Positions 41,052 to 63,452 of a stretch of DNA of 64,000 nt are shown one piece after another. Under the pieces are notes generated by a model. The model did not search any database and had not been told where the DNA came from. It was given only the letters and a program-made list of their open reading frames with translations. The position numbers were made by a program, and so were the translations under genes. Every line of letters begins with the position of its first letter. Position 1 is the stretch's first letter. This DNA comes from Kiritimatiellia bacterium (GTDB lineage Bacteria > Verrucomicrobiota > Kiritimatiellia > CAIVKH01): the NCBI GenBank assembly GCA_023953695.1, contig JAMLJG010000006.1:1-64000 (forward strand), written 5' to 3'.

Positions 41052-44015
41052 TCAAGGTAAGACGGCGCGGAAGAATTGGATGGCATTGGTGCCGACGGGG
41101 AGGTTGCCGATGTAGCTGCCTGCATTGTCGGTGATGCCCGTGCCGATGACCGACCATTCGCTGTCGTTTAGATCTGTCTTGCCCTCGATTATGTAGGTCT
41201 GATCCGCGACGCCGCTGATCCCGATATCATTTTCATCATCGTCGAGCGCGGTGATGGCGAGGACGGTGGGGGGCGCCTCGGAGAGATAGCGGATGGTTCC
41301 GTTGGTTAGCGTTTCCATCGAGAGGAAAGACGGGCCGGTTGCGGAACGGCCGCTGATTGCGCCGCTGGTCACGTTGGAAGGAACAAGCGTCATAAAGATG
41401 CCATGCCCGCCAAGTACAGAAACCGTTTCTGGGCCGCTCCCGCCGAAAAGCGGATTGCGCGATGATCCCCGCTTCTTGAGTGAAGCGGGTGCATTTGTCG
41501 CGCCGAGAATGAGGGAAGGATAGCCGATAGGCTCGTGAGTGAGGTTGATGTAGAGCAGCGCGTCAAAGCCCGCGTAGTGATCGTTGAATCCCGGCGGCCC
41601 GAGGTGCGTGCGGTAGAGCGCGGCAATCGCATTGCTCGGCGCATTGTCGAGCACGTCAGCGATATTGGCTCGCACGGCGTCGGAGGTCGCATTCAGGCCG
41701 GTGATCCCGTAGGTCTCCGGGCCGTCCACGAGGCCGGGAATGAAGGGCGTCTCAGGTTGGGCTGCGATGAACGGATTTGCGTCGCGTGGTCCGGTGAAGG
41801 TTTCGCGAGTCGCGCCCATTTGAGAGAGATTTGTTGAGCCGGCATTGAGCCCGAGGAGGAATCGTCCATTTCCGCCGACAGCGGCGCCCGCGCCGCCGGA
41901 GGTGTCAACGCTCAGGCCGATGGGTTGAAAAACGGATGTGAAAAGTTTAATCGTTCCGCCCGCGCCGCCGCCGCCGCTTCCTCCCATGGCAGGCATGCCT
42001 CCCGTGCCGCCGAAGGCGGAAGAGCCAGCGTTTCCGCCTTGGCCGCCCATTCCGCCATAGCCGCCAAATCCGCCACTACCGCCAGCCGAGCCATATTCGG
42101 CAACTCCATCACTGCCCATTTCCCCATCGGAACCCAGGTCTCCGTCGAGCCCACTTCCACCCGAAGAACCGTCAGCTGCCGATCCCGATTGACCCATTCC
42201 CCCAGAGCCGCCCATTCCGCCCGCTCCACCAAGACCGCCAGAGCCACCGCTGCCGAAAATGCCGCCCATCCCACCCGAGCCACCGCTGCCGGGGTATCCA
42301 TCTACACCATCTATCGCGCCGGCACCACCATCGCCGAACACGCCGTCAGCGCCCACAGGTCCATCATTTGCGTCCAAGCCCGCGTCTGCGACAAGTGAAT
42401 TGGCATCTCCTCCACGCGCGTAAAATTCACCACCTGCATTCATGCGGCCGAGGGCGATGATTTCAAGTGCGCCACCGCCGCCACCGCCCGCTCCACCACC
42501 CATACCTCCGCGTCCTCCCATTCCTCCTCCCGCGCCTAGCGCTGCGACGCCGCCACCGCCACCGGTTCCAGGCATGCCGGCGAATCCGCCAGCCCCGGGC
42601 ATTCCTCCATTCCCTCCATCACCGCCCCTGCCGCCGGCTCCGCCATGGCCGCCGTTGCCTCCATCGCCGCCATTTCCACCATCGCCACCATCGAACTCGC
42701 CCGCGTCACCACCGGGATCGCCGGCCATTCCGTCTTCACCATCTGACCCCATTTCGCCGTCCTGTCCGGCATATCCACCGTCTCCACCCGCGCCACCGCC
42801 GCCATTGCCGCCCGCACCGCCACCGCCACCGCTACCACCCGCGCCACCACCGGCGGCGCCGCCGCCACCGCCTCCACCCGAGCCGCTCCCGCCGGAGCCG
42901 CCTCCACCGCCACCACCACCGCTGATCAGGGACCCCGTGGCTGTGTTTTGACCCGCAGCACCGACGATCCCAATTTCTGCATCTTCGCCGGAGCTGCCGA
43001 CGGTTCCATCGCTGCCCGCTTCGCCCATCGGCCCATCCTCGCCGGAGTCCCCATCGCCTCCATCGCTGCCTACGTCGCCGGAACTCGCCTCATAGCCGCC
43101 GCCACCACCGATGCCAACACTGGCACCAACGCTTCCACCGTTCCCTCCGCTCTGAGCGGCTAAGCCACCGTAGCCACCCGCGCCGCCCATGCCTCCAGCG
43201 CCTCCGTTCACGGATGCGCCGCCCACGCCGCCGAGACCGCCGTTCACCCCTGCTTCGCCCGTGCCGCCGCTTGCGGATGCCGATCCGCTCTGCCCGTCCT
43301 CTCCTGCGGTGCCGTCGAATCCGTCTTGCCCAGGTGAACCCGGCTCGCCGCTTGTTCCTGTGTCGCCATCAAGGCCCGATTCGCCGCTATCGCCCGGACC
43401 ACCGGCAGACCCAGGAAGACCTGAAGATCCGGGGCCTCCCATATCGCCCATCAAGCCGCCCCCGAAGGGAGCATCGCCGCCGTTTCCGCCTGTTCCTCCT
43501 TCACCACCGTCCGCGCCATCGCCGCCCATGCCACCGTCACCGCCGCTACCGCCCGAACCCCCCATTCCGCCATTGCCGCCATTCCCGCCGTTGCCAGCCA
43601 GTCCGCCCGCACCTCCATCGCCGCCGTTTCCGCCCGCGCCGCCCGCGCCCCCATCGCCGCCCCTTCCGCCTTCAGCGCCCAAGCCGCCTCCGGGGCCGGG
43701 CGACCTATTCAAGGCAGAGACATCCACCTCTACAGTTGGCGCGATGTTCGCGTTGCCCGCCACGAGCAGCGAAATGCCGTTTGCGCCGACTGCGGTCACC
43801 GTGTCTGTGCCCATCAAATTCAAGTCGCCGTGAATGAGCCACTGGGCGACGGAATTGGTCGTGCTGGCGAACGTCGTCGAAACGCCGTGGATCTCGTTGG
43901 TCACCACGCCATTCTCGGTGAACGTGCCGGTGTCGGTGTTGAAGACAAACTCACTCGCGTGAAGGGATAGAGCGAGAAAGCAAGTCAAGATGAGCGACAA
44001 TGCGATGCGGCGCAT
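41052..44015 (-). CDS. Giant secreted glycine-rich/collagen-like protein
   Basis: 987 residues. Signal peptide MRRIALSLILTCFLALSLHA. A ~70-residue beta domain follows (FVFNTDTGTFTENGVVTNE ... GNANIAPTVEVDVSALN). Residues ~104-690 are Gly-rich low complexity. They include GGxGG-type segments, as in mycobacterial PE-PGRS proteins, and stretches of true Gly-X-Y collagen repeat (GLDGDTGTSGEPGSPGQDG). A ~290-residue globular tail contains GATRETFTGPRDANPF, and the protein ends IIEGKTDLNDSEWSVIG ... FFRAVLP, the same C-terminal module as the amylase. It is presumably exported and may form an extended fibrous surface layer. The function is unknown. Confidence 0.85.
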   Translation of the reverse strand: MRRIALSLILTCFLALSLHASEFVFNTDTGTFTENGVVTNEIHGVSTTFASTTNSVAQWLIHGDLNLMGTDTVTAVGANGISLLVAGNANIAPTVEVDVSALNRSPGPGGGLGAEGGRGGDGGAGGAGGNGGDGGAGGLAGNGGNGGNGGMGGSGGSGGDGGMGGDGADGGEGGTGGNGGDAPFGGGLMGDMGGPGSSGLPGSAGGPGDSGESGLDGDTGTSGEPGSPGQDGFDGTAGEDGQSGSASASGGTGEAGVNGGLGGVGGASVNGGAGGMGGAGGYGGLAAQSGGNGGSVGASVGIGGGGGYEASSGDVGSDGGDGDSGEDGPMGEAGSDGTVGSSGEDAEIGIVGAAGQNTATGSLISGGGGGGGGSGGSGSGGGGGGGAAGGGAGGSGGGGGAGGNGGGGAGGDGGYAGQDGEMGSDGEDGMAGDPGGDAGEFDGGDGGNGGDGGNGGHGGAGGRGGDGGNGGMPGAGGFAGMPGTGGGGGVAALGAGGGMGGRGGMGGGAGGGGGGALEIIALGRMNAGGEFYARGGDANSLVADAGLDANDGPVGADGVFGDGGAGAIDGVDGYPGSGGSGGMGGIFGSGGSGGLGGAGGMGGSGGMGQSGSAADGSSGGSGLDGDLGSDGEMGSDGVAEYGSAGGSGGFGGYGGMGGQGGNAGSSAFGGTGGMPAMGGSGGGGAGGTIKLFTSVFQPIGLSVDTSGGAGAAVGGNGRFLLGLNAGSTNLSQMGATRETFTGPRDANPFIAAQPETPFIPGLVDGPETYGITGLNATSDAVRANIADVLDNAPSNAIAALYRTHLGPPGFNDHYAGFDALLYINLTHEPIGYPSLILGATNAPASLKKRGSSRNPLFGGSGPETVSVLGGHGIFMTLVPSNVTSGAISGRSATGPSFLSMETLTNGTIRYLSEAPPTVLAITALDDDENDIGISGVADQTYIIEGKTDLNDSEWSVIGTGITDNAGSYIGNLPVGTNAIQFFRAVLP
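41955..43706 (-). repeat. Low-complexity glycine-coding repeat region
   Basis: About 1.7 kb of imperfect GGN-rich triplet and nonamer repeats inside the giant gene (complement appears as CCGCC/ACC tracts on the plus strand). Codon use is varied (GGA, GGC, GGT, GGG mixed), implying old, diverged repeats rather than recent slippage. It generates long spurious proline-rich frames on the opposite strand. Confidence 0.85.
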
Positions 44016-48702: not shown

Positions 48703-48726
48703 AGGGCGATCTGCTAGACTGTGGGC

Positions 48727-49674
48727 ATGATCGCGGTGGATCACAGACAGGTTGCGGCGTTTGCGGACTTTTTTTGCGCTGCATCGGATGTGAAGGCCTT
48801 TGATTTCTGTCACACGCCGCCTCCGGCCATTTTCCCGCCCGCGCACGGGGCCGGCGTCCTCGAGTATGTCTTTTTCAATGCGGGCCATCAGTTCGGGTTC
48901 TGGCGGTTGGAGAACGATCGCTATGCGGGGCCTATGCTTGCGGTGGTTGATGGCCATCAGCGGAAGGGCTCGGATTATGTGTCCTATTGCCTCACGCGCG
49001 CGTGGCGCGAGAACGCCGATGTATTCATGCCGGCCTCCGTGTCGGCGGTGGACTGGAATAAAGTTTTTCGAGATGACGAAGGGCGGAATCCTCTGCCGAT
49101 GTGGGAGGAGCATGTTGCGATTATTTCGCGCTATGCGAACTGGTTCGCGGAGCGGGCGACCACTCCGGCGGAGTTGGTCGCGCGATCGAATGCGGCGGAG
49201 CGCCCGCTCGCAACGCTTCTGGCTGAGGCGGGGACGATCCCGGGCTATGTGGAGGATCCGCTGCACAAGAAGTTGTTCCTTCTCGCGATCATGTTGGAGA
49301 ATCGGCCTGAGAAATTTTTGCGCGTGACGGATCCGGAGTCCTACGAGCCGATCATTGATTATCATCTTCAGCGCAGCGCGCTGCGCGCGGGGTTGGTGCG
49401 CGTTGAGGATGCGTCGGTTCGGGCCGCACTGGTGGAGCGCCGCGTGGTGCCGGCAGAGGTTGAGGGGCGCATTCGTCAGGCGGTTTTTGATGCGCTCTGC
49501 GAGGTCGTGCGTCTTTCGGGCCGTTCGGTTGCCGCGGTGGACTATTTCTTCTTCATGAATCGCCGCCGCTGCCCCGAGATGTCGCAGCCCGAGTGCGAGC
49601 GCTGTCCGGTGCAGTCTATCTGCACGCAAGAGGTTGATCTATTTCAGCCGGTTTTCCGAACCACGTTCTATTGA
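48727..49674 (+). CDS. Putative HhH-GPD-like N-glycosylase with Fe-S-type cysteines (queuosine-salvage-like)
   Basis: 315 residues. All-helical. The C-terminus ends CPEMSQPECERCPVQSIC, Cys spacing 7-2-5, close to the C-x6-C-x2-C-x5-C [4Fe-4S] loop of endonuclease III/MutY. A HhH-GPD-like core is suggested by DPLHKKLFLLAIMLENRPEKF, PIIDYHLQRSALRAGLVRVED and AVDYFFFMNRR. Acidic and His residues (AVVDGHQRKGSDYVSY) sit early. The DPLxKKxxLLAxxL and DYHLxRxALRxGLV strings are what I recall of the queuosine-salvage (Qng1/DUF2419) family, which shares the glycosylase fold. Which base it cleaves is unresolved. Confidence 0.55.
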   Translation: MIAVDHRQVAAFADFFCAASDVKAFDFCHTPPPAIFPPAHGAGVLEYVFFNAGHQFGFWRLENDRYAGPMLAVVDGHQRKGSDYVSYCLTRAWRENADVFMPASVSAVDWNKVFRDDEGRNPLPMWEEHVAIISRYANWFAERATTPAELVARSNAAERPLATLLAEAGTIPGYVEDPLHKKLFLLAIMLENRPEKFLRVTDPESYEPIIDYHLQRSALRAGLVRVEDASVRAALVERRVVPAEVEGRIRQAVFDALCEVVRLSGRSVAAVDYFFFMNRRRCPEMSQPECERCPVQSICTQEVDLFQPVFRTTFY

Positions 49675-51731
49675 GCGGCGGGAAGGTGGCGCGGCGTTTC
49701 GCTCGCGCGCGGAGGGGGTTCGGGCGCGGCGTTCTTGCGCATTTGCATGAGGTGGTCGGCCAGAAGCGTTTTGCCGTTGAACTCGAACAGTTCGGCGTGG
49801 CCGCGGGTGATGGTCACGGTGTCATCGAGCAGGATGTGTTCGGTGTTGTCGGTGTCCATGAGGAGGCGGATGGCGACGCGATGGGAGCCGGGATCGAGTT
49901 CGAGTTCTTGCGCGATGCGGATGTCGCGACCATCGCGACGGGTGTGCATGGAGCGCGAGTAGCGCTCGTGTCCATCCACGAGGATCGAGAGCGTGTAGTT
50001 GACGTGGCGGCGGACGGTCTTCTTGGGCAGGCGCATGTGGGCGGGCGTACTGGCCAGTTCTTCGGGGGTCCAATCCTGTTGTTCTTCGACGACGAGGCCG
50101 GGCAGGGTGAGGAAGGCGCGAAAGACTCCGTGTTCGGGGGGCGTACCCGTCTTCCACGCGCTGAAGACGGCGATGACAGCGACGAAGAGGGTGTGGGCGA
50201 GGGCCGTTCGGAGCCAGGCGCGTTTTTTGTTGGGAGGCGTGCGCGGTTGAGTGGTGTCGGTTTCCAATTCGCGCGCGATGGCGTGAAAGGCGTGTCCCGA
50301 TTCGGGCAGCACGCGGACTCGACTCACGAAGTCGGGATCGAGCGAGGGGCGGCGTCGGTTGAGGAGGCGCGCGGATGCGAGGTCATATCCCCAGCGATTG
50401 CTGCAGTTTTCGCCGGGGCAGGTGAGCAAGAGGGCAGAAGGCGCGCGTTCGAGGAGGTGATACATCGTGTCCGCGTGCAGTTTTCCTGCGCAGCGCACGC
50501 CGAGGGTGATGAGGTCGGGATAGTGCGAGCGGAGTCGGGCGAGCGTGCGAGCGATGCCTTGATTGGTTTCGCAATAGACCAGGGCGGGGCGTGTTGAGGT
50601 GAAGCTCCCGGCGGGTATGGAGTGGTTGAGCCATTCGAGTTGTGTGGCGGACGTTTCATCGGGCAAGCCGATTGCGACATCGAGGCAACTGGCGATGCAG
50701 AGTCCGCATTCCGTGCATTTGTCCGGCGCAACGACCGCGAGCAGGCGGCGATTGCCATCGGTGCGAGCTTGCATGGAAATGGCTTCGAATGGGCAATCGC
50801 GCGAGCATTGCGAGCAGCCGGTGCACTTGTCGTAGGAGACGACGGCGGGGCCGGATGCGCGATTACCTTGCCACCACCAGGGCATGGTTGCGAAGGCGAG
50901 GGTGAGAAGGAGAAAGAGGGCGAAGAGGATGACGGGGCCGGGGTGTTCGACGAAGGGGAGCCAGAATCCGGTGAAGAGGTCGGTCGGCATGCGTCCGGTG
51001 AGGATACGCGGATCGGCGCTTTCGAGGAGAGGGGCGGGCATGAGGATGGAGACGAGGAAGAGCGCGCTGATGAGCGCGGTGAAGGTGGCGACGTGGGGGA
51101 ACCATCCGGGTTTGGCCAGGTGCGCGGTGTGGATCCAGATCATGATGGTCATGACGAGGGGCACGGCGACGTGCAGGAAGAGGTTCATGAAGAAGAAGGA
51201 GCCGGTGAGCGGTACCGCGCCGCCGAAGGTTCGCAGGAGTGTGTCGCGGAGAAAGGGAGCGACCGTGGCGAGGCGCGCGCCGGATTCTGCGACCCATTGT
51301 CCGTGTTGGTCCCAGACCATGACGTAGCCGGTCCACGCGGAGGCCAGCAGGGCGCCGGTGAGCGCGACGCCGCTGATCCAGGCGAGCACGCGCGGGCCCC
51401 AGCTTCGCCCCTGGATGACGACTTGGAGGATGTGAAAAACGGTGGCGACGATGGCAATGTCGGTTGCGTAGCGATGCATGGAGCGCATCCATCGGCCCAG
51501 CCACCACTGTTCCTGGATTCGCTCGAGGGACGCGTGAGGCGATCCGATTCGGTAGAAGAGGAGCAGGTAGAGTCCGGTGATTAGGAGGAGAAGCAGCATG
51601 CCGATGGCGAGGGTTCCGCTGCGATAGAGCGGGTTGAACTCGGATCGGTAGAGCTTGTCGAACAGGCGGGTGATGGGGCTGAGGGCCGCGGCGAGGGATC
51701 GCCGTGGAACGTTAATCTTTTGTGCGCTCAC
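49668..51731 (-). CDS. Cytochrome b / 2x[4Fe-4S] ferredoxin / MvhD-like fusion
   Basis: 687 residues from GTG 51731, which overlaps the SCO stop by 4 bp. Residues ~40-290 are a cytochrome b-like membrane part with seven or so spans. Bis-heme histidines appear paired at H86/H100 (MHRYATDIAIVATVFH) and H187/H201 (LHVAVPLVMTIMIWIH). Residues 303-313 (CTGCSQCSRDC) and 339-349 (CTECGLCIASC) are two [4Fe-4S] sites. Residues ~380-450 have VYCET, VRCAGKL and CPGENC, the pattern of MvhD/HdrA-type hydrogenase delta subunits. A further span (~510) and a beta domain end the protein. A single polypeptide could pass electrons between quinol, ferredoxin and the CuA oxidase. Partner and direction unknown. 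Confidence 0.85.
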   Translation of the reverse strand: MSAQKINVPRRSLAAALSPITRLFDKLYRSEFNPLYRSGTLAIGMLLLLLITGLYLLLFYRIGSPHASLERIQEQWWLGRWMRSMHRYATDIAIVATVFHILQVVIQGRSWGPRVLAWISGVALTGALLASAWTGYVMVWDQHGQWVAESGARLATVAPFLRDTLLRTFGGAVPLTGSFFFMNLFLHVAVPLVMTIMIWIHTAHLAKPGWFPHVATFTALISALFLVSILMPAPLLESADPRILTGRMPTDLFTGFWLPFVEHPGPVILFALFLLLTLAFATMPWWWQGNRASGPAVVSYDKCTGCSQCSRDCPFEAISMQARTDGNRRLLAVVAPDKCTECGLCIASCLDVAIGLPDETSATQLEWLNHSIPAGSFTSTRPALVYCETNQGIARTLARLRSHYPDLITLGVRCAGKLHADTMYHLLERAPSALLLTCPGENCSNRWGYDLASARLLNRRRPSLDPDFVSRVRVLPESGHAFHAIARELETDTTQPRTPPNKKRAWLRTALAHTLFVAVIAVFSAWKTGTPPEHGVFRAFLTLPGLVVEEQQDWTPEELASTPAHMRLPKKTVRRHVNYTLSILVDGHERYSRSMHTRRDGRDIRIAQELELDPGSHRVAIRLLMDTDNTEHILLDDTVTITRGHAELFEFNGKTLLADHLMQMRKNAAPEPPPRASETPRHLPAAQ

Positions 51732-52627
51732 TTTTCGATCCGTGCAATTGCGTCGGTGATCCAGGAGGCCGATGGGCGGTTGAAGAGATAGGCCAATCGC
51801 CCGTCGGCATCCAGGATATAGACCATGGGCGGGTGTGTGATGTCGCCGTTTTGTTCGTCGCGAATTGTTGGCACGCGATATTCTTTCAACACGCGCTGAA
51901 TTTCCTCCAGCGAGCCGGTGTACATCCGCGATTGCGGGCCGAAATCCCAGCTTTTTGCCATCGCGGCGATTTGACCTTCTCGGTCGCGCCACGGGTCGAG
52001 GGTGATGACGAGGATCGGAATGCGCTGCCCCAAAGTTTCCGACGCTTCCTTGAGTTCGCTGAGGATGGCGGGGCAGATGGTCTTGCAGTGGGAGAAGGCG
52101 AAGGTGAGGATGAGCGGCGCGCCGCGAAAGTCGGCGGGTCCGCTGCGCTGCCCGAATTGGTCGGTGAGTTGAAAGGCATGGGCCGGATCGGAGAGTCGAG
52201 GATAGCCCTCGGGCAGTTCGCCATCCGTTTCATCGAGGTAGATGGCGGCGGCGAGTGCGCGTCCATCGCGGATCCGGCTGGTGACCCAGGCGGCCTCGGA
52301 GGAGACGCCGAAGGTCGCGAGCAGAATGATGATTTTGCCGAGAGGGGCGCGATAGAGGAAGGCGAGTGCGTCGAAGGCTTCGCGGCGATAGGAGACGATG
52401 ACTGCGGCGAGGAGGAGCAGGGGGCTCAGCGTCAGCATGATCCACCCACGCGCATCGGGCATGCCGGTTTCGGTGGTGCCGAAACAGACTGCCTGCGCGC
52501 GGAGGAACCAATCGGGTGTTGTCGCTGGAACCTGCCAGAAGCCGAAGAGCCAGAACCCCATTGTGGCGAGCAGCCAGAGGAAGAGGATCCCGAGTATCGT
52601 CAAGCGCCCGCGCACGGCCTCAACCAA
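51728..52627 (-). CDS. SCO1/SenC-family copper chaperone with extra N-terminal spans
   Basis: 299 residues. The C-terminal thioredoxin-like domain carries FSHCKTICPAILSEL (C-x3-C-P, the CuA metallochaperone motif) and the distal His in GDITHPPMVYILDADG. It would load copper into CuA of subunit II. Unlike ordinary one-span SCO proteins it has three N-terminal spans (~10-30, ~60-82, ~95-112) around a conserved-looking loop AQAVCFGTTETGMPDARGW. The start is ambiguous (TTG at 52627 or GTG at 52615). It overlaps the stop of subunit I and the start of the cytochrome b fusion, so the operon is translationally coupled. Confidence 0.88.
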   Translation of the reverse strand: MVEAVRGRLTILGILFLWLLATMGFWLFGFWQVPATTPDWFLRAQAVCFGTTETGMPDARGWIMLTLSPLLLLAAVIVSYRREAFDALAFLYRAPLGKIIILLATFGVSSEAAWVTSRIRDGRALAAAIYLDETDGELPEGYPRLSDPAHAFQLTDQFGQRSGPADFRGAPLILTFAFSHCKTICPAILSELKEASETLGQRIPILVITLDPWRDREGQIAAMAKSWDFGPQSRMYTGSLEEIQRVLKEYRVPTIRDEQNGDITHPPMVYILDADGRLAYLFNRPSASWITDAIARIEK

Positions 52628-54353
52628 TCTTCCAGATGAATGCCAGGGACTTCCAGTTCACGAAGTAGTAGAGGACGAAGCAAACGAAGAAGATGATGAC
52701 CAGCACCACGGTTCCCGGGGTGCCCGTCTTGTGCAGCTTCGCCACGCGCTCGCCCCCTTCGTGCGCCTGTTTGGGGAGTTTGATCACGCCCGGTGGGACG
52801 TGGCCCGCCGAAGCCTCTGGGTTTGCCGGATCGAAGCGGCGTCCAAAGAAGACGCTGGCCACGGCGATCAGGACATAGATGAGCAGGCCGAGGAACGCGA
52901 GGATGCCGCCGATGCCGAAAATGGCCTGCAGCACATAGACCACGGGATTGAAGTCCGCCGTGAAGAGCGCGTTGGAGAAGCTGCTGTCGTAGTGGCGGCG
53001 CGGCACACCGAAGACGCCCATGAACGTCATGGCGACAGACATGACTGTGATGCCGATACCGAAGATGTAGGGCTGCGCTTTGGCGAGCGGATACATGCGG
53101 ATTTGTTTGCGGAAGATGAGCGGCAGGAGGTAGTAGGTCACCGCCATGAAGGACAGCGCAGTTCCCCCGACCACCGTTGTGTGGAAGTGGCCCGGCACGC
53201 GCAGCGTGTTGTGGACGATGATGTTGATTTGCTCCGTGCCGATGACGACGCCCGTGATGCCGCCGAGGAACCCGAAGATCACGAGCGAGATCATCAAGCC
53301 GGAGAAGCCGGGGTCGCTCCACGGGGCTTTGCGGAGCCATTCGAAGATGCCGTTGGTATAGCCGCGGAGCCGCTGCCCCATCTCAATGCCCGCCGGGACC
53401 GTGAAGCCGTGAATCATGCTCGCGAGCACGGCGAGATACATGGCGTAGCTGGTGTTCCACACCTTCCATGCGGGGCCCATGCCGGGGTCCACCAGAAGAT
53501 GGTGCGCGGAGGCCATGGAAATGAAGAGAATATAGAGGAAGAAGGCTGTGCGGCTGACCTTCTCATTGAGCACGACGCCGCCGACCGTGAGGCCCGCCAG
53601 CAGGTACCAGATGGAGACCATGGCCGCCACGTTGATTTGCTGGCTGGAGTGGCCGAGGCCCCAGAACAGCAGGCGGTAGATTTGCGGGTCCACGTTCATC
53701 AATCCGAGCGACCACAGATAGGTCGGGATGTAGATCAGCGCGCCGTGGAGCAGCGTGATGACCGCGATAATCGCGGCCGTCAGGCCACCGAACGTGACCA
53801 GTGGCATACTGCCGGTGTATGCGCCCTCTTTCTTCGCAATCACCAAGGTCGCCACGAATTGCAGCGAGACAATCAACGCGCCGACAGCGAAGAAGATGAT
53901 GCCGAGGTAGTAGTTGGGCGCCGCTTTGAGCGGGGGATAGGAGGAGAACGTCACATCCGCTTTGCCCGCGAAGACGTAGTACTCCACGATCAGTGTGCCC
54001 ACGACCATCAGCACGAACGCGAGCCAGCCGAGTTTGGGCGCTGGCAAACGCGAACTCAGCACAATGGGGCCGGCGAAATAGAGAACGGCCATTTCAAAGA
54101 ATATGATGAAGAAGATCAGCATATTCAGGCCGTGCGCCGTCAGGAGCCGGTAATACCACGTTGCATCCAGCAGGTGGACAGCCTCCCAGCGCGTGAGGAC
54201 GAGCAGAAGCGCCGCGATACCGCCGATGAGGAGGCAGACGACCGAGACCACTGCGTGCAATCGAAGAAGGATGCTGGCGGTGGGGTCAATCTTGAGGCCC
54301 GTGATCGGGCAGGAGCGGCAACGCGCCGCGAATTGTGAAATAGCGTCTTTCAT
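52620..54353 (-). CDS. Heme-copper oxidase subunit I lacking the catalytic Tyr (NO-reductase-like)
   Basis: 577 residues, about 14 spans. Low-spin heme His H74 (TAHGLNMLIFF), CuB His H235 (WGLGHSSQQINVAA), CuB pair H284/H285 (SAHHLLVDPGMGP), heme a3/low-spin pair H389/H391 (VPGHFHTT) are all present. The residue four after H235, Tyr in A- and B-type oxygen reductases (H-P-x-V-Y), is Gln239 here. The cbb3-type alternative Tyr six residues before the HH pair is Ile. Every oxygen-reducing member I know has such a Tyr, while NO reductases lack it. So NO reduction is the most economical reading (inference). Overlaps the SCO gene. Confidence 0.9.
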   Translation of the reverse strand: MKDAISQFAARCRSCPITGLKIDPTASILLRLHAVVSVVCLLIGGIAALLLVLTRWEAVHLLDATWYYRLLTAHGLNMLIFFIIFFEMAVLYFAGPIVLSSRLPAPKLGWLAFVLMVVGTLIVEYYVFAGKADVTFSSYPPLKAAPNYYLGIIFFAVGALIVSLQFVATLVIAKKEGAYTGSMPLVTFGGLTAAIIAVITLLHGALIYIPTYLWSLGLMNVDPQIYRLLFWGLGHSSQQINVAAMVSIWYLLAGLTVGGVVLNEKVSRTAFFLYILFISMASAHHLLVDPGMGPAWKVWNTSYAMYLAVLASMIHGFTVPAGIEMGQRLRGYTNGIFEWLRKAPWSDPGFSGLMISLVIFGFLGGITGVVIGTEQINIIVHNTLRVPGHFHTTVVGGTALSFMAVTYYLLPLIFRKQIRMYPLAKAQPYIFGIGITVMSVAMTFMGVFGVPRRHYDSSFSNALFTADFNPVVYVLQAIFGIGGILAFLGLLIYVLIAVASVFFGRRFDPANPEASAGHVPPGVIKLPKQAHEGGERVAKLHKTGTPGTVVLVIIFFVCFVLYYFVNWKSLAFIWKIG

Positions 54354-54356
54354 GGA

Positions 54357-54905
54357 TTAGTCCTCTACGATGATTTTGCCGATCATCAAGTGATGACCGA
54401 TGCCGCAGAACTCGTTGCAAATGATTTTGAACTCGCCGGCCTCGGTGGGCGTCATTTTCAGCGCATAGTCATAGCCCGGCACGACTTGGATATTGATGTT
54501 CACGGGGAAGAGGCCAAACCCGTGATTCAGGTCGAGGCTGGAGAGGTGAATGGTGTATTCGACGCCCTTCTTCAGCTTCAACACAGGCGACCACATCCAC
54601 ATTTGCCCGAGCAGATAGACCTCGCTGCCCGCCGGAGGCTCGACGACGGGGATTCCCTGGTCCGTGCCAACGCTGTAATCCTCGATGAACTTTTGCGTGC
54701 GCGCATAGAACGCCATCGGGTCCACCTTGCCGCGCGTTCCGGAAGGGTTTTGTCCCCCCTTGAAGTGCCAGAACGGCATCGCGGCGAACATGAAAATGCA
54801 CCAGATGAAGGAGACGGTGACCCATATTTTTTCCTGGCGCCCTGCGGGCTTCCACCAGTCCGAGCCGGGGCCGACCAGCGCGGAGTGCATGCTTTCGTCA
54901 GACAT
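54357..54905 (-). CDS. CuA-containing heme-copper subunit II
   Basis: 182 residues. One N-terminal span (~28-46) precedes a cupredoxin domain. The full CuA ligand set is present: H128 in LDLNHGFGLF, then CNEFCGIGHHLM giving C163, E165, C167, H171 and M174. Thus it can accept electrons from a soluble or membrane cytochrome c, although none is encoded here. QMWMWSPVLKL matches the aromatic stretch of subunit II. Stop and start of subunit I are 3 bp apart. Length is short, as in B-type enzymes. Confidence 0.95.
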   Translation of the reverse strand: MSDESMHSALVGPGSDWWKPAGRQEKIWVTVSFIWCIFMFAAMPFWHFKGGQNPSGTRGKVDPMAFYARTQKFIEDYSVGTDQGIPVVEPPAGSEVYLLGQMWMWSPVLKLKKGVEYTIHLSSLDLNHGFGLFPVNINIQVVPGYDYALKMTPTEAGEFKIICNEFCGIGHHLMIGKIIVED

Positions 54906-54920: not shown

Positions 54921-55070
54921 TTAGGGAAGAGGTGAGGGAGGAAGGGTGACGACTTCGTAGATGCCCCAGAGCGTGTAGAACACGAACATCGTCACGATCC
55001 CGAGCACGAGCAGGAGAATCGGACGATCCATCAAGCGCTGACCCAAGGGCTTTTTGGGCTTCATTTCCAT
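54921..55070 (-). CDS. 49-aa single-span protein, probable small subunit of the heme-copper complex
   Basis: A short frame starting MEMKPKKPLGQRL, with one hydrophobic helix ILLLVLGIVTMFVFYTLWG and a short tail VVTLPPSPLP. GGAGGCGGCC precedes the ATG (55070); the stop is 15 bp before the subunit II start. Gene order (small span, CuA subunit, subunit I) resembles the small IIa-type subunits of ba3-class enzymes. It is probably embedded in the complex. Confidence 0.75.
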   Translation of the reverse strand: MEMKPKKPLGQRLMDRPILLLVLGIVTMFVFYTLWGIYEVVTLPPSPLP

Positions 55071-56262: not shown

Positions 56263-59200
56263 TTAGGCGCGCTTTGCGAGGCGGCGCTCTTCACGCCAGC
56301 AGAAGAGAACGGGCGCGACGAGGGTGGTCATCACTTGGAGGGTCATTCCACCGAAGGAGGGGATGGCCATGGGAATCATGATGTCGGCCCCGCGCCCGGA
56401 GGAAGTGAGGACGGGGATGAGGGCGAGGATGGTGGTGGCGGTGGTCATCATGCAGGGGCGCACGCGGCGCAGTCCGGCTTCGATGGTCGCCTCGCGGATT
56501 TCGCGGGCAGTGCGAGGGGCCAATCCTTCGAAGCGTTGGGTTAGATAGGTGCACATGATCACGCCGTCATCGGTTGCGACGCCGAAGAGGGCGAGAAAGC
56601 CGACCCAGATGGCGACACTGAGGTTGATGGTGTTCACTTGGAAGAGGTCGCGCATGTTCACGCCGAAGAGATGGAAATTGAGGAACCAGTCTTGCGCGTA
56701 GAGCCAGATCAGGAGGAATCCACCTGACCAGGCGATGAAGATTCCGGTGAAGACGAAGAAGGAGAGGGCCGTGTCGCGGAACTGGAAGTAGAGAATCATG
56801 AAGATGATGAAGAGCGTCAGTGGAATCACGGTGGCAAGGCGCTGTGATGCTCGGATTTGATTCTCGTAGCTTCCGGCAAAGGTGTAGCTGACGCCGGGGG
56901 GCAGGACGAGTTGCCCTGAGGTGAGCTGTTGCTCGAGGTGCTGACGCGCTTGTTGAACGACATCCACTTCGGCGAACTGGGGCTTTTTGTCGAAGATGAC
57001 AAAGCCGGTGAGGAATGTGTCTTCGCTGCGGATCATTTCGGGACCGCGCGCGTAGCGGATATCCGCGAGCTGTTCGAGCGGGATTTGCGCGCCGTTCATC
57101 GCGGGCACGAGGATTCGGCGGAGCGCCTCGGGTGAATCGCGCAGCTCGCGCGCATAGCGCACGCGGACGGGGTAGCGCTCGCGGCCCTCGATGGTTCGCG
57201 TGGCGCGTTGTCCGCCGATGGCGACTTCGAGAACGTCTTGAAAATCTTCGATTCGGATTCCGTAGCGCGCGAGGGCGATGCGGTCGGGAACCACTTCGAG
57301 ATAGGGCTTGCCGACGATGCGATCCGCAATGACGGTACTGGGCTCGACCATGGGGACCTCGCGCAGCGCCTTCTCGAGGGCGATACCGGCCTTTTCAATA
57401 GCCTCCAGATTGGGGCCGTGCACTTTGAGTCCCATTGGCGAGCGCATTCCGCTTTGCAGCATCACGACGCGTGTTGCGATGGGTTGGAGACGCGGCGCGG
57501 CCGTGGTGCCGGGGATTTCAGCCGCGCGAACGATTTCATCCCAAATGTTGTCGGGCTTGCGAATACCGGCCCAGGCTTCGCGGCCGGGGTTCAGCTCGGG
57601 ATCGAGCGGCGGTCGCCATTGGCGGAACGGTTTGCCGTGCGGATCAGGGATCAATTCGCCATGGGCATCGCGCAAAAAGGCGCCTCGAATGAAATAGGGT
57701 TTTCCATCCGGCGCGAGGACGGGGGCGCCGTCGAACGAGCGCGCCAGATCGTTGGTTGTCGCGTCATACTTAAAGGAAAGGCGATGGCCGTTGCGATCGG
57801 TTGCATATTCCGAGCGGTAGTTGATGACCGTTTCGATCATTTGCACGGGGGCGGGGTCGAGCGGGCTCTCAGCGCGCCCGAGCTTGCCGACGGCGGTTTC
57901 GACTTCCGGGATCGCGTAGAACGCCATGTCCTGTTTCTGGAGCACATCGAGCGTTTCATCCAGCGACGCGTGCGGAAGCGTGGATGGCATGTAGAGATAG
58001 GAGCCTTCGTCCAAAGGCGGCATGAACTCTTTGCCTAGGCCGGGGAAAGCGTGCGCGACGGTGGAGACAGGGCCCCATGTGCGCAGCGCTCTGGGCATCC
58101 AAGCGAAGAGCCGATCGAACCCCAGCCAAACCATCAATCCCAGCAGGACGAGCGCGGTCGGAATGAGCAGGAAGGCGCGCTTGTGATTGAGGCACCAGCG
58201 GAGGATGCGCTCATAGATGCGTTGGTAGTAGAGGAGCGCCCCGAGCGTTGCGCCGAGGATGAGGGCGACGAGAAGAAAGTTGCGAAAGAGACCGCGGTCG
58301 GGGCCGAGCGGCATCCAGTGCGCGGAAATGAGCCCGACAATGAAAACGGCGGCCGCCCACGAGAGGGGCGACTGGTTCGGCTTGGGCGCTTCGGGTTTGG
58401 CGGCGCGTTTGCGGTGGCGGAAGAATGCGTGCGCGGCGGCGGGGAGAATCGTCAGCGCGATGATGACCGATGCGAGGAGCGCAAACGTCTTGGTGAACGC
58501 GAGAGGCTTGAAGAGCTTGCCTTCCGCCCCCTCCATCGCGAAGACGGGAAGAAAGCTGATGATGGTGGTCGAGATCGCGGTGACGACGGCGCTGCCGACC
58601 TCGCAGGTCGCCTTGTAGATCACGGGGAGCGTTCTGCGGCGATCGCCGCGCTCGTCCGCAGGCATCGCATCGAGGTGCTTGAGGATGTTTTCACACACGA
58701 TGATGCCCATATCCACCACGGTGCCGATCGCAATGGCGATGCCGGAGAGCGAGACGATGTTGGCATCCACCTTGAAGAATCGCATGGCGATGAAACAGCC
58801 CAGCACTGCCAGTGGCATGACGCCGGAAATGAGCAAGGAGCTGGCGAAGTGGCGCACCATCACGAGGACGACGATTGTGGTGACGAGGATTTCGAGATAG
58901 AGCGCGTCGTTGAGGGTGCCGAGGGTTTCGTAGATCAATTCGCTGCGATCGTAGAAAGGGATGAGCGTGACCTGGCTCGTTGTGCCATCGGCAAGTGTCT
59001 TTTTGGGGAGCGAAGGCGCGAGTTCGGCAATCTTCTTTTTGACATTTCCAATGGCTTCGAGCGGGTTCTCGCCGTGTCGCACGACGACCACGCCGCCGAC
59101 CACTTCCGCGCCTTCCTTGTCCAACGCGCCGCGCCGCAACTCGGGGCCCAGGCTCACGTGGGCGACGTTCTTGACGTAGATTGGCACGTTATCGGCAACT

Positions 59201-60054
59201 TTGATCACGGTATTCTCGAGGTCGCTCACGCTCTTCAAGAAGCCAATGCCGCGCACGGTGTATTCGACCTGATTCACCTCGAACACGCTGGCGCCGACAT
59301 CGAGGTTCGACATGCGGACCGCGTTGACGATTTCGGGCAGAGTGACGCCGTGCGCGCGCATGGCGTCGGGGTCAACATCCACCTGATACTCTTTGACGTA
59401 TCCGCCGATCGAGGCGACCTCGCTCACGCCTTCGGCCGATTGGAGTGCATAGCGAACGGTGAAATCCTGGATCGAGCGCAGTTCGGAGAGATCCCAGCCG
59501 CCGGTGGGCTTGCCTTGCGGATCGCGCCCTTCGAGGGTGTACCAGAATACCTGACCGAGCGCGGTCGCGTCGGGGCCCAGCATCGGCTGTACACCTTCGG
59601 GCAACGTGTCGGGCGGCAGGCTGTTCAATTTTTCGAGAATGCGGGATCGGGCCCAGTAGAACTCCGCGTCCTCGTTGAAGATCACGAAGATCATGGAGAA
59701 GCCGAAGGCCGACTCGCTGCGGATCGTCTTGACCTCGGGTACGCCGAGAAGCGCGACGGTGAGCGGATAGGTGACTTGGTCCTCCATGTCCTGAGGCGAT
59801 CGGCCCATCCACTCGGCGAACACGATCTGTTGATTTTCGCCGATGTCGGGAATGGCATCCACCGGCACGGGCGCGCGATGTAGGAATGGAATCTTCCAAT
59901 CGAACGGCGCGTGAATGATGCCCCAGAAGATGAAGAAGATGGTGAGGAGCGAGACGACCAGTTTGTTGGTCATGCAGAATCCGATCACGCGCTCCACAAG
60001 TGTGCGCGGCTTCGGCAGGTCGCCGGGCGACGGGGCGGAAGGGGTGGTGGACAT
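56263..60054 (-). CDS. cusA: CusA/CzcA-family heavy-metal RND efflux pump
   Basis: 1263 residues from ATG 60054, some 200 longer than usual. Twelve-span RND plan: ENQQIVFAEWMGRSPQDMEDQVTYPL (heavy-metal-RND opening), SGIAIAIGTVVDMGIIVCENILKHLDAMPADERG with the proton-relay Asp, LGKEFMPPLDEGSYLYMPSTLP, and WVGFLALFGVATDDGVIMCTYL near the end. Of the CusA metal-site Met triad, MLQSGMRSP and RGPEMIRSED keep the first and third; the middle one (GGAM in E. coli) reads GGQRATR here. The extra residues include a long loop (EYATDRNGHRLSFKYDATTNDL ... IRKPDNIWDE). Exports Cu(I)/Ag(I) or divalent metal; specificity uncertain because of the missing Met. Confidence 0.93.
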   Translation of the reverse strand: MSTTPSAPSPGDLPKPRTLVERVIGFCMTNKLVVSLLTIFFIFWGIIHAPFDWKIPFLHRAPVPVDAIPDIGENQQIVFAEWMGRSPQDMEDQVTYPLTVALLGVPEVKTIRSESAFGFSMIFVIFNEDAEFYWARSRILEKLNSLPPDTLPEGVQPMLGPDATALGQVFWYTLEGRDPQGKPTGGWDLSELRSIQDFTVRYALQSAEGVSEVASIGGYVKEYQVDVDPDAMRAHGVTLPEIVNAVRMSNLDVGASVFEVNQVEYTVRGIGFLKSVSDLENTVIKVADNVPIYVKNVAHVSLGPELRRGALDKEGAEVVGGVVVVRHGENPLEAIGNVKKKIAELAPSLPKKTLADGTTSQVTLIPFYDRSELIYETLGTLNDALYLEILVTTIVVLVMVRHFASSLLISGVMPLAVLGCFIAMRFFKVDANIVSLSGIAIAIGTVVDMGIIVCENILKHLDAMPADERGDRRRTLPVIYKATCEVGSAVVTAISTTIISFLPVFAMEGAEGKLFKPLAFTKTFALLASVIIALTILPAAAHAFFRHRKRAAKPEAPKPNQSPLSWAAAVFIVGLISAHWMPLGPDRGLFRNFLLVALILGATLGALLYYQRIYERILRWCLNHKRAFLLIPTALVLLGLMVWLGFDRLFAWMPRALRTWGPVSTVAHAFPGLGKEFMPPLDEGSYLYMPSTLPHASLDETLDVLQKQDMAFYAIPEVETAVGKLGRAESPLDPAPVQMIETVINYRSEYATDRNGHRLSFKYDATTNDLARSFDGAPVLAPDGKPYFIRGAFLRDAHGELIPDPHGKPFRQWRPPLDPELNPGREAWAGIRKPDNIWDEIVRAAEIPGTTAAPRLQPIATRVVMLQSGMRSPMGLKVHGPNLEAIEKAGIALEKALREVPMVEPSTVIADRIVGKPYLEVVPDRIALARYGIRIEDFQDVLEVAIGGQRATRTIEGRERYPVRVRYARELRDSPEALRRILVPAMNGAQIPLEQLADIRYARGPEMIRSEDTFLTGFVIFDKKPQFAEVDVVQQARQHLEQQLTSGQLVLPPGVSYTFAGSYENQIRASQRLATVIPLTLFIIFMILYFQFRDTALSFFVFTGIFIAWSGGFLLIWLYAQDWFLNFHLFGVNMRDLFQVNTINLSVAIWVGFLALFGVATDDGVIMCTYLTQRFEGLAPRTAREIREATIEAGLRRVRPCMMTTATTILALIPVLTSSGRGADIMIPMAIPSFGGMTLQVMTTLVAPVLFCWREERRLAKRA

Positions 60055-60056
60055 GG

Positions 60057-61862
60057 CTAGTTCTCCGCTCCCACGTGGCCGCGGATAACGCCACACGTCA
60101 GCATCTCATCGCCAAAGTAGGGGTTGAGAATGGCCTCTGTGCGCTGTAGCCACTCGGCCCCTTTGTCGTCGTTGGCCATTGGGCAAAAGGCGATGAACGC
60201 GCGCTCGCGCAAATCGGCTGCATGTTCTCTTGCGATGGCAACCACGGGTTGGCTGATGAGGCCGAACGCGATTCGCGCCGTATCCAACGATTTCGCGGCG
60301 ACGAGCGTGGCAGCGTGCGCGGCGATGCGGGGGAAGTCGGCCTTCGCGGCGTCTTGAAGCTGCGCGGCGTTGGCGTGCGCGCCATCGAGATCATCGTTTG
60401 CCAACGCGCCCGCGAGGTCGAGGTAGGCGTGGAGGAGCGCGTTGAACGATTCGGCATAAGGCTCAAGTTTCGCGGCGTTCTCCTCTGCGGTTTCGACCGG
60501 ACTCATCATGCTCGGCTTGGCGAGGAGCTGGGCGGCGCTATCAATTTTCATATTTCCCCGCACGACGACCTGTTCGCCCTCGCGCAGTCCTGCCTTCACG
60601 ATGTAGAAGTTGCCCGCGCGCGGACCGAGTTCGACCTCGCGCCCTTCGTAGAGGCCCGGCGAATGTGGATCGGCCACATAGACGATGGCGCGGCGTCCTG
60701 TGAGGAGCGGAGCGGTGGCGGGAATCACCAACGGCGGAATCGAAGTGAGCGCGTCAGCGGAGACAAAGCCCAGTTCCAGCGTGGGCACGAGCGCCATGTC
60801 GCAGATATCGCACGTTCCCGGCGCGGCTTTGATGACCTCCGGGTGCATTGGGCAAATCCACTTATCGGCCAATTCGGGCGAGACTTCTTTGCCGCTCACG
60901 GACTGGCGGGCCAGCAGCGTTGCGCGAACAAACATGCCCGGCTTGAGCGAGCCGTCTGGATTCGGCACGTTCAGTCGAATCTTGGCGGAGCGCGTTTGGT
61001 CGTTGAGTTCGGGAGGGATAAACGCGACATGGCCGGTGAACGTGCGGCCGGGGAGCGCCTCGACTGTGAGCTCCACAAGTTGACCATAGTGAATGGAGCC
61101 GAGATCGCTTTCATACGCATCGAGAAGCGCCCAGACTGCCGTGTTGTCTGTGATGGTTGCGAGTGTATCGCCGCGATTGAGCCAGTGCCCTTCGTTGCCA
61201 CTCTTGCTCACCAGCACACCGTCCACGGGACTCCGCACCGTGAACGCGCGGCTGGCAGTGCCGCGCTGTAGTGTGGCGTCAATCTCCTCGTCGAGCACGC
61301 CGAGCAGACTCAGTTTCTGCCGCGCTCCTTCCGCGTTGCCGCTGCGCTGCGCTGCCAGCAATTCTTTTTGCGCGGCGAGCACCTCCGGGCTGTAAATCTC
61401 CGCGAGGTGATCGCCCTTGCGGAGCGGCACACCCTCATAATTGACGAAGAGCCGCTCAATCACGCCATCGGCCAGCACGGTGACATCGCGCGCGCGCGTG
61501 CTATCGAACGCGATCTTGCCCACCATCCGGATCTCCGATTCGACAAAGCGGCGCTCGACGGGCGCGGTTTCAATTTGCGCGATCGCGCGCGCAGCGGGGG
61601 AGAGTTCAATTTGGCGCGGGCCGAGCTGCTTGTTGCTTCCGCTGTGCAGCGGTGTCAGATCCATACCGCAGAGCGGACACTTGCCCGGATGGGGTTGACG
61701 AATTTGCGGGTGCATGGAGCAGGTCCAAATCGTGTCCTCCGCGACGACATGCGCAGCCGCGTCAGTGGGCGCAGTTTTGGGCGCGGACGAAAAGCAGCCG
61801 CGCAGGAACAAGCCTGCGAGAAAGGCAATCAGCAGCAGGGCGACTAGATGGGAGCGTTTCAT
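60057..61862 (-). CDS. cusB: CusB-type periplasmic adaptor with two heavy-metal binding domains
   Basis: 601 residues from ATG 61862. N-terminal anchor/lipoprotein-like signal (ends GLFLRGC). A heavy-metal-binding motif WTCSMHPQIRQPHPGKCPLCGMDLTPL (residues ~46-73) precedes the membrane-fusion core (IAFDSTRARDVTVLADGVIERLFVNYEGVPLRKGDHLAEIYSPEV). A second copy, WICPMHPEVIKAAPGTCDICDMALVP, is inserted at about residue 290. A C-terminal ~150-residue helical domain (ENAAKLEPYAESFNALLHAYLDLAGAL...) resembles DUF3347. It links CusA to the outer-membrane channel and can pass metal to CusA. The operon gap to cusA is 2 bp. Confidence 0.92.
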   Translation of the reverse strand: MKRSHLVALLLIAFLAGLFLRGCFSSAPKTAPTDAAAHVVAEDTIWTCSMHPQIRQPHPGKCPLCGMDLTPLHSGSNKQLGPRQIELSPAARAIAQIETAPVERRFVESEIRMVGKIAFDSTRARDVTVLADGVIERLFVNYEGVPLRKGDHLAEIYSPEVLAAQKELLAAQRSGNAEGARQKLSLLGVLDEEIDATLQRGTASRAFTVRSPVDGVLVSKSGNEGHWLNRGDTLATITDNTAVWALLDAYESDLGSIHYGQLVELTVEALPGRTFTGHVAFIPPELNDQTRSAKIRLNVPNPDGSLKPGMFVRATLLARQSVSGKEVSPELADKWICPMHPEVIKAAPGTCDICDMALVPTLELGFVSADALTSIPPLVIPATAPLLTGRRAIVYVADPHSPGLYEGREVELGPRAGNFYIVKAGLREGEQVVVRGNMKIDSAAQLLAKPSMMSPVETAEENAAKLEPYAESFNALLHAYLDLAGALANDDLDGAHANAAQLQDAAKADFPRIAAHAATLVAAKSLDTARIAFGLISQPVVAIAREHAADLRERAFIAFCPMANDDKGAEWLQRTEAILNPYFGDEMLTCGVIRGHVGAEN

Positions 61863-61869
61863 GCGGGAG

Positions 61870-63150
61870 CTACCTGTTGTCTGTTGAGGTGAGGACGCCG
61901 GTTGACTGTTCCCAGTCGCGAAGGGGTCCGGCGAGTTGGTCCAGCCGCGCGCGAGCGCGCGCCTGGGTTGCGATGGCCGTGTGCAAATCGAACTCTGATT
62001 CCAACAGTGTGCGCTGTGCCTCGATGCGGTCCAAGAGGCTGCCGGTGCCCGCGGTGTAGGCCGCTTGTGTCTGCTCCACAGCCTGGCGGGCCAGCGGCAC
62101 GACGGTCTCGCGCAGCAGCGCGGCCGTGCGAGACGCGTTCTCCGCTTGGGCGTGCCATTCGGTGACTTCCTGTTCAATCGCGCGCAATTCTTCCTGTCGC
62201 TCCGCCTCTGCCCACTGGCGCTCGGCCTCGGCGCTGGCAATGGAGCCTTTGTATTTGCCGCCCCAGATCCACGGGAGGTTCATTGCGATGCCGGTATCAA
62301 TCGCTTCAATCTCGCTGCGGCCCTCGAGTTGGCGCGCGGCAACGCTCAACTCAATCATCGGCGCGCGATCCCGCCGCGCGGCGCGAGTGGCCGCCGCGCG
62401 CGCTTGGATTTCGCGGTCGCGCGCGAGCAGTCTGCAGTTTTGCTCGCGCGCGTTGGCGAGCAACTGCGCGAGATCGGTGAGCGGTTCGGTTGGCAGCGCG
62501 AGGTCGCTCACCTCGCGCTGCGCATCGGGACTCGCGTTGAGCTGCGCGTTGAGTGTGGCGAGGGCAACCGATTGCTCGCGCTCGAGCGTTGCCACCTCGT
62601 TGCTTTGTTTGGCTCGCTCTATTTGCGAGCGCGTTAAGTCCGCAGACATCGCCTGGCCCGATTCGTATCGCGCGCGGACGCTATCGGCGAGATCGGCGGA
62701 CAATTGCGCCATTTCCCGAAGCGTGGCGACGCGCTGATCGGCCAGCCAGAGATTCCACGCCGCTTCCGTCAGCGCGGTGCGGAGTTCTCGGCCCGCCTCC
62801 AGATAGCGATACGCGGCGGCCTCGGCGTCGAGCTGAGCCGCCTTCAGCCGCGCGCTGCGTTGGCCCCACGCGGGGAGGCGCTGACTCACCATGTATTCGA
62901 TGTCCATGTAGTCACTCATCCGCGTATCCGCGCGCTCGAACGTTGCGCCGATCATCGGGTCCTCGAGGCCTCCTGCGCTCCGAATGCGCTGCTGGGCCGC
63001 GTGCCATTGGCGCTCGGCCGCTTGCAGGCGCGGGTTTGCGTGCATCGCTTCGTCGAGGAGCGACGGGAGCGAGTCGGCGAACCCAATGGAGCTGACCCAC
63101 GAGAGGGCGAGCGCGAGTGCTGTCGCGCGAGAGACGCGGTGAGTGTACAT
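61870..63150 (-). CDS. cusC: Outer-membrane efflux channel, TolC/CusC family
   Basis: 426 residues from ATG 63150. Signal peptide MYTHRVSRATALALALSWVSSIGFAD. Two OEP repeats of paired coiled-coil helices: LLDEAMHANPRLQAAERQWHAAQQRI and SGQAMSADLTRSQIERAKQSNEVATLEREQSVALATLN, then LANAREQNCRLLARDREIQ and YTAGTGSLLDRIEAQRTLLESEFDLHTA. The GLEDPMIGATFER and PWIWGGKYKGSIASAEAE segments are the usual beta strands. It forms the trimeric exit duct. The stop is 8 bp before the start of cusB. Confidence 0.92.
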   Translation of the reverse strand: MYTHRVSRATALALALSWVSSIGFADSLPSLLDEAMHANPRLQAAERQWHAAQQRIRSAGGLEDPMIGATFERADTRMSDYMDIEYMVSQRLPAWGQRSARLKAAQLDAEAAAYRYLEAGRELRTALTEAAWNLWLADQRVATLREMAQLSADLADSVRARYESGQAMSADLTRSQIERAKQSNEVATLEREQSVALATLNAQLNASPDAQREVSDLALPTEPLTDLAQLLANAREQNCRLLARDREIQARAAATRAARRDRAPMIELSVAARQLEGRSEIEAIDTGIAMNLPWIWGGKYKGSIASAEAERQWAEAERQEELRAIEQEVTEWHAQAENASRTAALLRETVVPLARQAVEQTQAAYTAGTGSLLDRIEAQRTLLESEFDLHTAIATQARARARLDQLAGPLRDWEQSTGVLTSTDNR

Positions 63151-63167
63151 GGTGGGAGTGGTGTGAT

Positions 63168-63452
63168 TTAAGGGTTGTCGCTGGCAGCCTTGGCCTTCGC
63201 TTCGTCCGCCATCTTCTTTAGATATTTCTCCGGGTCGGCGTTGAACTTCTTCAGGCAGCGTTTGCAACAGAGTTTGATTTCCTGGTTGCCGTGCTTGAAT
63301 ACATAGGCGTCGCCCATCGAGCCGAGGTCTTCATCCGACACGATGCACGTCGTCAGCGGGTAGGGCGTGGTGGCCTCTTCTTCCGCGAGGACCGCGGGGG
63401 CGACGCCGATCAACGCGAGCGCTGCGAGGGCGAGGAGTAGTTTCTTCTTCAT
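63168..63452 (-). CDS. Periplasmic YHS/TRASH-like metal-binding protein
   Basis: 94 residues from ATG 63452, overlapping the previous stop by 4 bp. Signal peptide to VLAEEE. The mature domain has TTCIVSDEDLGSMGDAYVFKHGNQEIKLCCKRCLKKFNADPEKYLKKM, the C-x(n)-C-C-x-x-C ... F-x-x-D-P-x-K-Y-x-x-x-L layout of YHS-domain proteins that bind copper or heavy metal. A copper/silver handling role as part of the efflux operon is likely. Small secreted YHS proteins adjacent to Cus systems are common. Confidence 0.85.
   Translation of the reverse strand: MKKKLLLALAALALIGVAPAVLAEEEATTPYPLTTCIVSDEDLGSMGDAYVFKHGNQEIKLCCKRCLKKFNADPEKYLKKMADEAKAKAASDNP

Follow-up and report, generated by a model that had tools for sequence, protein, structure and literature searches.

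Within the 64,000-nucleotide stretch analysed here (hereafter the window; contig JAMLJG010000006.1 of a Kiritimatiellia bacterium), the minus strand of positions 49668..51731 encodes a 687-residue protein in which a cytochrome b, a 2x[4Fe-4S] ferredoxin domain, an MvhD/FlpD-like module, a transmembrane (TM) helix and a beta-sandwich follow one another. The gene for this fusion lies beside those of a heme-copper enzyme assigned to eNOR, and the fusion is very probably the dedicated redox partner of that enzyme. eNOR is a proposed energy-conserving nitric oxide (NO) reductase and source of nitrous oxide (N2O), present in a much wider range of bacteria than those generally regarded as denitrifiers. 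In many phyla the fusion accompanies eNOR of one large clade, which makes it a candidate electron source for eNOR.

The fusion gene starts with a GTG codon at 51731, overlapping the stop codon of SCO1, and runs down to 49668; a plus-strand reading of the same interval was discarded because of stops in the translation. The initial annotation had placed a 687-residue cytochrome b/ferredoxin/MvhD fusion at these coordinates, in agreement with the Pfam matches, the MvhD profile and the conserved ligands reported below; the modules it named are real, but it had overlooked a seventh TM helix, the beta-sandwich and two subunit-IV-like helices. Hydropathy analysis gave six TM segments in the cytochrome b part and one at about residues 504–529. 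The six-TM core (residues ~25–290, 50862..51659) is made up of b6-like helices A–D and subunit-IV-like helices E–F. It is followed by the ferredoxin domain (residues ~296–350, 50682..50846; C303, C306, C309, C313 and C339, C342, C345, C349), by the MvhD/FlpD-like module (residues ~380–480, 50292..50594; C387, C414, C438, C443), and by the C-terminal TM helix with a predicted periplasmic beta-sandwich (residues ~500–670, 49722..50234), all on the minus strand. On which side of the membrane each domain lies is our inference from the topology of cytochrome b. The AlphaFold2 model of the whole chain, obtained with 63 sequences, had a mean predicted local distance difference test score of 89.8 and a predicted template modelling score of 0.88. 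All four heme His, eight ferredoxin Cys and four MvhD-type Cys residues were found in the window copy. Since this ligand pattern is conserved across 63 homologues (complete sets of heme His in 63, of ferredoxin Cys in 62 and of FlpD Cys in 56), it is not a product of chance, and the heme and ferredoxin ligands of the family are essentially invariant.

The Pfam Cytochrome_B domain was matched by residues 25–207 (E = 1.8e-16), with the heme ligand pairs H86/H100 and H187/H201 on helices A–D, and the Foldseek comparison of the structure with cytochrome b chains gave a match over about 290 columns. The family profile matched cytochrome b6 at 4.6e-37; aligned to mitochondrial-type cytochrome b, it extended beyond helix D. 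A profile of the C–F segment aligned through the PEWY motif with both subunit IV of b6f and the cytochrome b of bc1. The likeness to these proteins comprises a bis-heme four-helix bundle with the same ligand spacing as well as alignable helices E–F and PEWY region, whereas the fusion differs from b6f and bc1 in its added cytoplasmic iron-sulfur (FeS) arm and in having Asp (D251) for the PEWY Glu. The Asp is kept in 61 of the 63 homologues, and the Trp of the motif is lost in the window copy. Neither a Rieske protein nor cytochrome c1/f was found among the operon genes, no genome-wide search for Rieske having been made.

In the cytoplasmic arm, residues 302–349 matched a dicluster ferredoxin domain of Pfam (E = 1e-8). 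The FlpD family (PF02662) scored 15.7 bits with the window copy, under the curated cut-off of 22.3 bits, and was matched at E ≤ 1e-3 by 61 of 64 fusion homologues; the family profile also matched the solved MvhD chains 9sw2_D (1.1e-13) and 5odc_D (4.3e-12). The C-terminus of HdrA was matched at 1.9e-18. The full-length HdrA2 model was not reached (37 bits against a cut-off of 1100), the match being confined to model positions 572–726. The nearest relative of the arm that was found is an HdrA2-like protein fused to MvhD in a genome of the same class (L008:1405-3462), with the same order of modules and 34% identity to the arm of the fusion. Because of these profile matches and of the order and identity of this protein, the arm looks, at the level of sequence, like an HdrA2 tail attached to a six-helix cytochrome b. 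The MvhD extension of HdrA2 has been described (PMC6019823). HdrA2 of Methanosarcina and bacteria, in which HdrA is fused to MvhD, shares with the fusion the 2x[4Fe-4S] domain followed by MvhD at the C-terminus, but the fusion is devoid of the flavin/thioredoxin-reductase-like part and has the membrane cytochrome b in its place. The MvhD/HdrA2 wiring module has thus been reused outside the Hdr setting, on a membrane cytochrome of respiration.

The genes before the fusion are, in the order of the operon and all on the minus strand, those of a small subunit (54921..55070), of the cupredoxin subunit II (54357..54905, CuA motif CNEFCGIGHHLM), of the heme-copper catalytic subunit I (52620..54353) and of a SCO1/SenC-family copper chaperone (51728..52627; PF02630, 4.4e-25). 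The small subunit has 49 residues and a single TM segment (MEMKPKKPLGQRLMDRPILLLVLGIVTMFVFYTLWGIYEVVTLPPSPLP), and most eNOR loci have a short open reading frame (ORF) like it before subunit II, the similarity of the window copy being judged by eye. The closest relative of subunit I in the PDB was the Thermus ba3 oxidase, whose HPIVY237 corresponds to H235-S-S-Q-Q239 of the window protein, Gln239 standing at the position of the catalytic Tyr237. All six heme-copper His ligands (H74, H235, H284, H285, H389, H391) are kept. Gln at the position of the active-site Tyr is the signature of eNOR (PMC8756737). Since Gln239 replaces this Tyr, the enzyme beside the fusion is assigned as an eNOR-type NO reductase. 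The genetic tie to a CuA heme-copper enzyme, either an oxidase or an NO reductase, that had been noticed earlier was therefore borne out, with Gln239 deciding for eNOR. The Gln was kept in every related subunit I in which the WGxGH motif was located, the simple pattern not locating it in 15 of 84. Identity of the window subunit I was 52% to the Defluviimonas copy and 45–48% to those of Thermus and Thermomicrobium. The window enzyme thus shares with known eNOR the Gln, the six His ligands, the CuA subunit II and the small TM subunit, while the accounts of eNOR in PMC8756737 and PMC4653789 comprise subunits I and II only, to which the window clade adds the cytochrome b fusion.

Scanning the genome collection with the fusion protein alone as query returned no relatives, and eNOR subunit I was used as query instead. 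The locus set comprised the best 80 loci from its scan of 84,980 species genomes, that is, the closest relatives of the window eNOR, and included Alphaproteobacteria, Gammaproteobacteria, Accumulibacter, Deltaproteobacteria, Myxococcota, Gemmatimonadota, Acidobacteriota, Bacteroidota, Oligoflexia and Rokubacteria. The fusion was located no more than 7 kb from eNOR in 48 of the 52 loci with adequate flanks, nearly always with SCO and often also with CyoE between the two. A search of plasmids gave one fusion-bearing record, an eNOR operon of Defluviimonas with the small subunit, subunits II and I (the latter 52% identical), CyoE, SCO, the fusion (31% identical), a separate beta-domain protein and hemerythrin. 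In Gemmatimonadota and some relatives (L028, L030, L031, L035, L037-L048, L050, L051, L055, L056, L059) the fusion and a beta-domain gene are divergent from the eNOR genes, so that the proximity to eNOR goes beyond co-transcription. The domain order of the fusion is conserved, and the cytochrome b and MvhD segments were not found as separate proteins in close relatives; it is the C-terminal beta domain that can stand apart, with a gene of its own in Alphaproteobacteria and Gemmatimonadota. Two other genes of these loci may be mentioned. A bacteriohemerythrin gene, a possible NO/O2 carrier (for example L014:14131-14535), is the last gene in most alphaproteobacterial eNOR operons. In a gemmatimonadete eNOR locus without the fusion (L049:4068-5972), a nearby NapH/MauN-like ferredoxin-type membrane protein and the product of a gene with a propeller of the cytochrome d1/lactonase type may together be a functional replacement.

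The sample from the window's phylum comprised 388 genomes: the full-length fusion was found in eight and eNOR subunit I in the identical eight, as neighbours in all of them. For independent genomes, the probability of identical sets arising by chance would be ~8e-17; the genomes here are not independent, six of the eight carriers coming from one of the three families represented. Both genes were absent from the other genomes of the window's genus and family in this set, which points to gain by transfer or loss elsewhere. Pairwise distances of subunit I and of the fusion in 61 operons were correlated with a mirror-tree r of 0.953 (permutation maximum 0.135), to which shared organismal descent contributes. 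In both trees the deltaproteobacterial L045 fell among Gemmatimonadota copies and the acidobacterial L041 grouped with the gemmatimonadete L051, as expected if the two genes travel together.

In seven betaproteobacterial-type loci (L072, L080, L081, L093, L097, L098, L100) a second protein is encoded directly after the fusion. The cytochrome b of one of these sister proteins (L080:13397-15409) is 44% identical over 287 residues to that of the fusion, and its arm consists of Fer2, FAD_binding_6 and NAD_binding_1 domains, resembling dioxygenase reductases. Since the sister protein carries this Fer2-FAD-NAD(P)H reductase arm, the shared cytochrome b core appears to be built for cytosolic reductants; of all the findings, this swap of arms gives the strongest hint of electron exchange between the membrane core and such reductants. 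The sister protein may also be a heterodimer partner of the fusion in these operons.

From these data the fusion is proposed to be a transmembrane electron conduit. Its b6/subunit-IV-like core would span the membrane with two b hemes. Facing the cytoplasm would be the electron-input arm of HdrA2-type enzymes, the 2x[4Fe-4S] domain and then the MvhD-like [2Fe-2S] docking domain, and on the periplasmic side the TM-anchored beta-sandwich would stand beside the CuA subunit. Electrons from a reductant in the cytosol, be it ferredoxin, NAD(P)H or a docked dehydrogenase, would enter at the MvhD-like domain and pass through the [4Fe-4S] clusters to heme bH and heme bL, and from there to a quinone at the Qo-like site or directly to CuA and eNOR, where NO would be reduced to N2O. 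The most likely cargo is cytosolic (or quinol) electrons to NO reduction. The complete route, from cytosolic donor to NO, is put forward with about even confidence; within it we infer a physical complex, the direction of flow, and the identities of the soluble donor and of the p-side acceptor.

Several observations weigh against this proposal. The fusion was missing in the eNOR loci L029, L049, L082 and L083, and also in the eNOR operons of Thermus and Thermomicrobium, whose subunit I is 44–45% identical to the Defluviimonas copy. Because such operons exist, not every eNOR must have the fusion as a neighbour. FlpD Cys residues were incomplete in seven of the 63 homologues: L018-L020, L068, L074 and L078 lack the final one, and L021, from the window's phylum, has lost all four while keeping all heme and ferredoxin ligands. 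In the window genome an NrfD protein (PF03916) is encoded near aa3 genes in an arrangement as in alternative complex III, which could feed CuA via cytochrome c. Finally, the SCO1 gene between eNOR and the fusion fits a role in assembly equally well.

Such a role is the strongest of the other explanations, although we consider it unlikely. The fusion would then be a maturation reductase in the manner of CcoG, working with SCO1 (and CyoE) while eNOR is assembled: electrons from the cytosol would cross the membrane through it and reduce Cu(II), disulfides or heme, off the catalytic path. The regular presence of SCO, and often of CyoE, between the two genes and the existence of eNOR operons without the fusion agree with this, and the beta-sandwich presumably recalls the immunoglobulin-like tail of CcoG. 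CcoG/RdxA/FixG, NosR and NapH connect FeS clusters in the cytosol, through the membrane, with copper or heme enzymes of the periplasm, but their likeness to the fusion is one of functional analogy only: no sequence kinship was found, and they have neither a cytochrome b6-like bis-heme core nor MvhD. CcoG (RdxA/FixG) serves cbb3 oxidases with no need of a bis-heme cytochrome b with a Qo-region Asp. Assembly does not seem to call for a full quinone-type core with a conserved Qo-region Asp, nor for so tight a co-divergence with subunit I. In addition, the fold search with the C-terminal beta domain gave no significant PDB match, and neither CcoG nor FixG_C was matched by the fusion in Pfam or in the top 25 of its 97 NCBIfam matches.

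The alignment of helices C–D and E–F with cytochrome b6, subunit IV and bc1 cytochrome b through the PEWY region, and the conservation of D251, would also suit a Qo-type quinol bifurcation, which we regard as improbable. Here one electron would go to CuA and eNOR, in the place of Rieske, and the other via bL and bH to the [4Fe-4S]/MvhD arm, reducing cytosolic ferredoxin or NAD(P)+; denitrifiers would then save the oxidising power of NO as low-potential reductant. Low-potential clusters are wired beside the n-side heme, and the MvhD/HdrA arm belongs to bifurcating systems. However, in the window copy the PEWY motif has Asp for Glu and no Trp, the operon contains neither Rieske nor cytochrome c, no low-potential acceptor was found, and the split of electrons would presuppose thermodynamic gating.

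The chances are similarly slim that the fusion is a plain quinol dehydrogenase, passing electrons of menaquinol or ubiquinol via the b hemes to CuA, with a regulatory or vestigial cytoplasmic arm. Its core is of the quinone type, no bc1 was detected in the window genome (93.6% complete), and the FlpD Cys residues are dispensable in some lineages. A vestigial arm is nevertheless at variance with the intact ferredoxin Cys in 62 of 63 homologues, and the arm of the sister protein is an NAD(P)H reductase. A low-potential branch with HdrA/Mvh-type flavin bifurcating partners, as the initial annotation suggested and as the MvhD-like module and the HdrA2-like ferredoxin pair would allow, is highly improbable: the window genome contains no FlpD protein besides the fusion and no HdrA above the cut-off, with weak ferredoxin-like matches only, the annotated Defluviimonas operon has no Hdr/Mvh genes, and some relatives have lost or altered FlpD Cys. 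What stands of that suggestion is the low-potential cytoplasmic branch itself, made plausible by the match between the arm and the HdrA2 C-terminus.

NirK was found above the cut-off in the window genome, with an Rrf2-family regulator adjoining, NosZ was not, and the fusion was the only PF00033 cytochrome b found; these findings count in favour of the proposed conduit. From this gene inventory the organism looks like a partial denitrifier reducing nitrite to N2O. The genome contains four heme-copper subunits I in total. FNR/Dnr-like boxes, which also speak for the conduit, were found upstream of 25 of 83 eNOR operons, mostly proteobacterial (shuffle mean 0.125). Upstream of the window operon there was no FNR or NsrR box, and a single AGGA-N8-TCCT inverted repeat was found, which hardly occurs at other eNOR loci.

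Both eNOR and every single module of the fusion are already known. The initial annotation knew of no such fusion in standard respiratory complexes, but it occurs across many phyla, and a similar Chloroflexi ORF, RME88945.1, appears without comment in Table A3 of PMC8756737. This protein likewise joins cytochrome b6, a ferredoxin domain like the beta subunit of dimethyl sulfoxide reductase and FlpD in one ORF, but has an additional cytochrome c (C1) domain, and is not discussed there as a partner of eNOR. In the literature searched, which excludes the broad NOR survey of Murali et al. (PNAS 2024), the fusion was not described as an eNOR partner, nor was the source of eNOR electrons stated. The question of the eNOR donor is now directly testable in cultivable hosts, and the fusion gene is a practical marker for an eNOR clade that frequently carries the annotation of a cytochrome c oxidase.

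Upstream of the eNOR operon, the minus strand (56263-63267) encodes a CusA/CzcA-type RND (resistance-nodulation-division) pump, a CusB-like adaptor and a TolC-like channel, a set for copper handling beside a copper enzyme. A convergent ORF of 317 residues at 48721-49674 (plus strand) belongs to no known family; its sole match, a weak one, was to an FeS cluster of the endonuclease III type. Farther away (41052-44015, minus strand) lies the gene of a 987-residue protein, most of which is a very glycine-rich repeat region.

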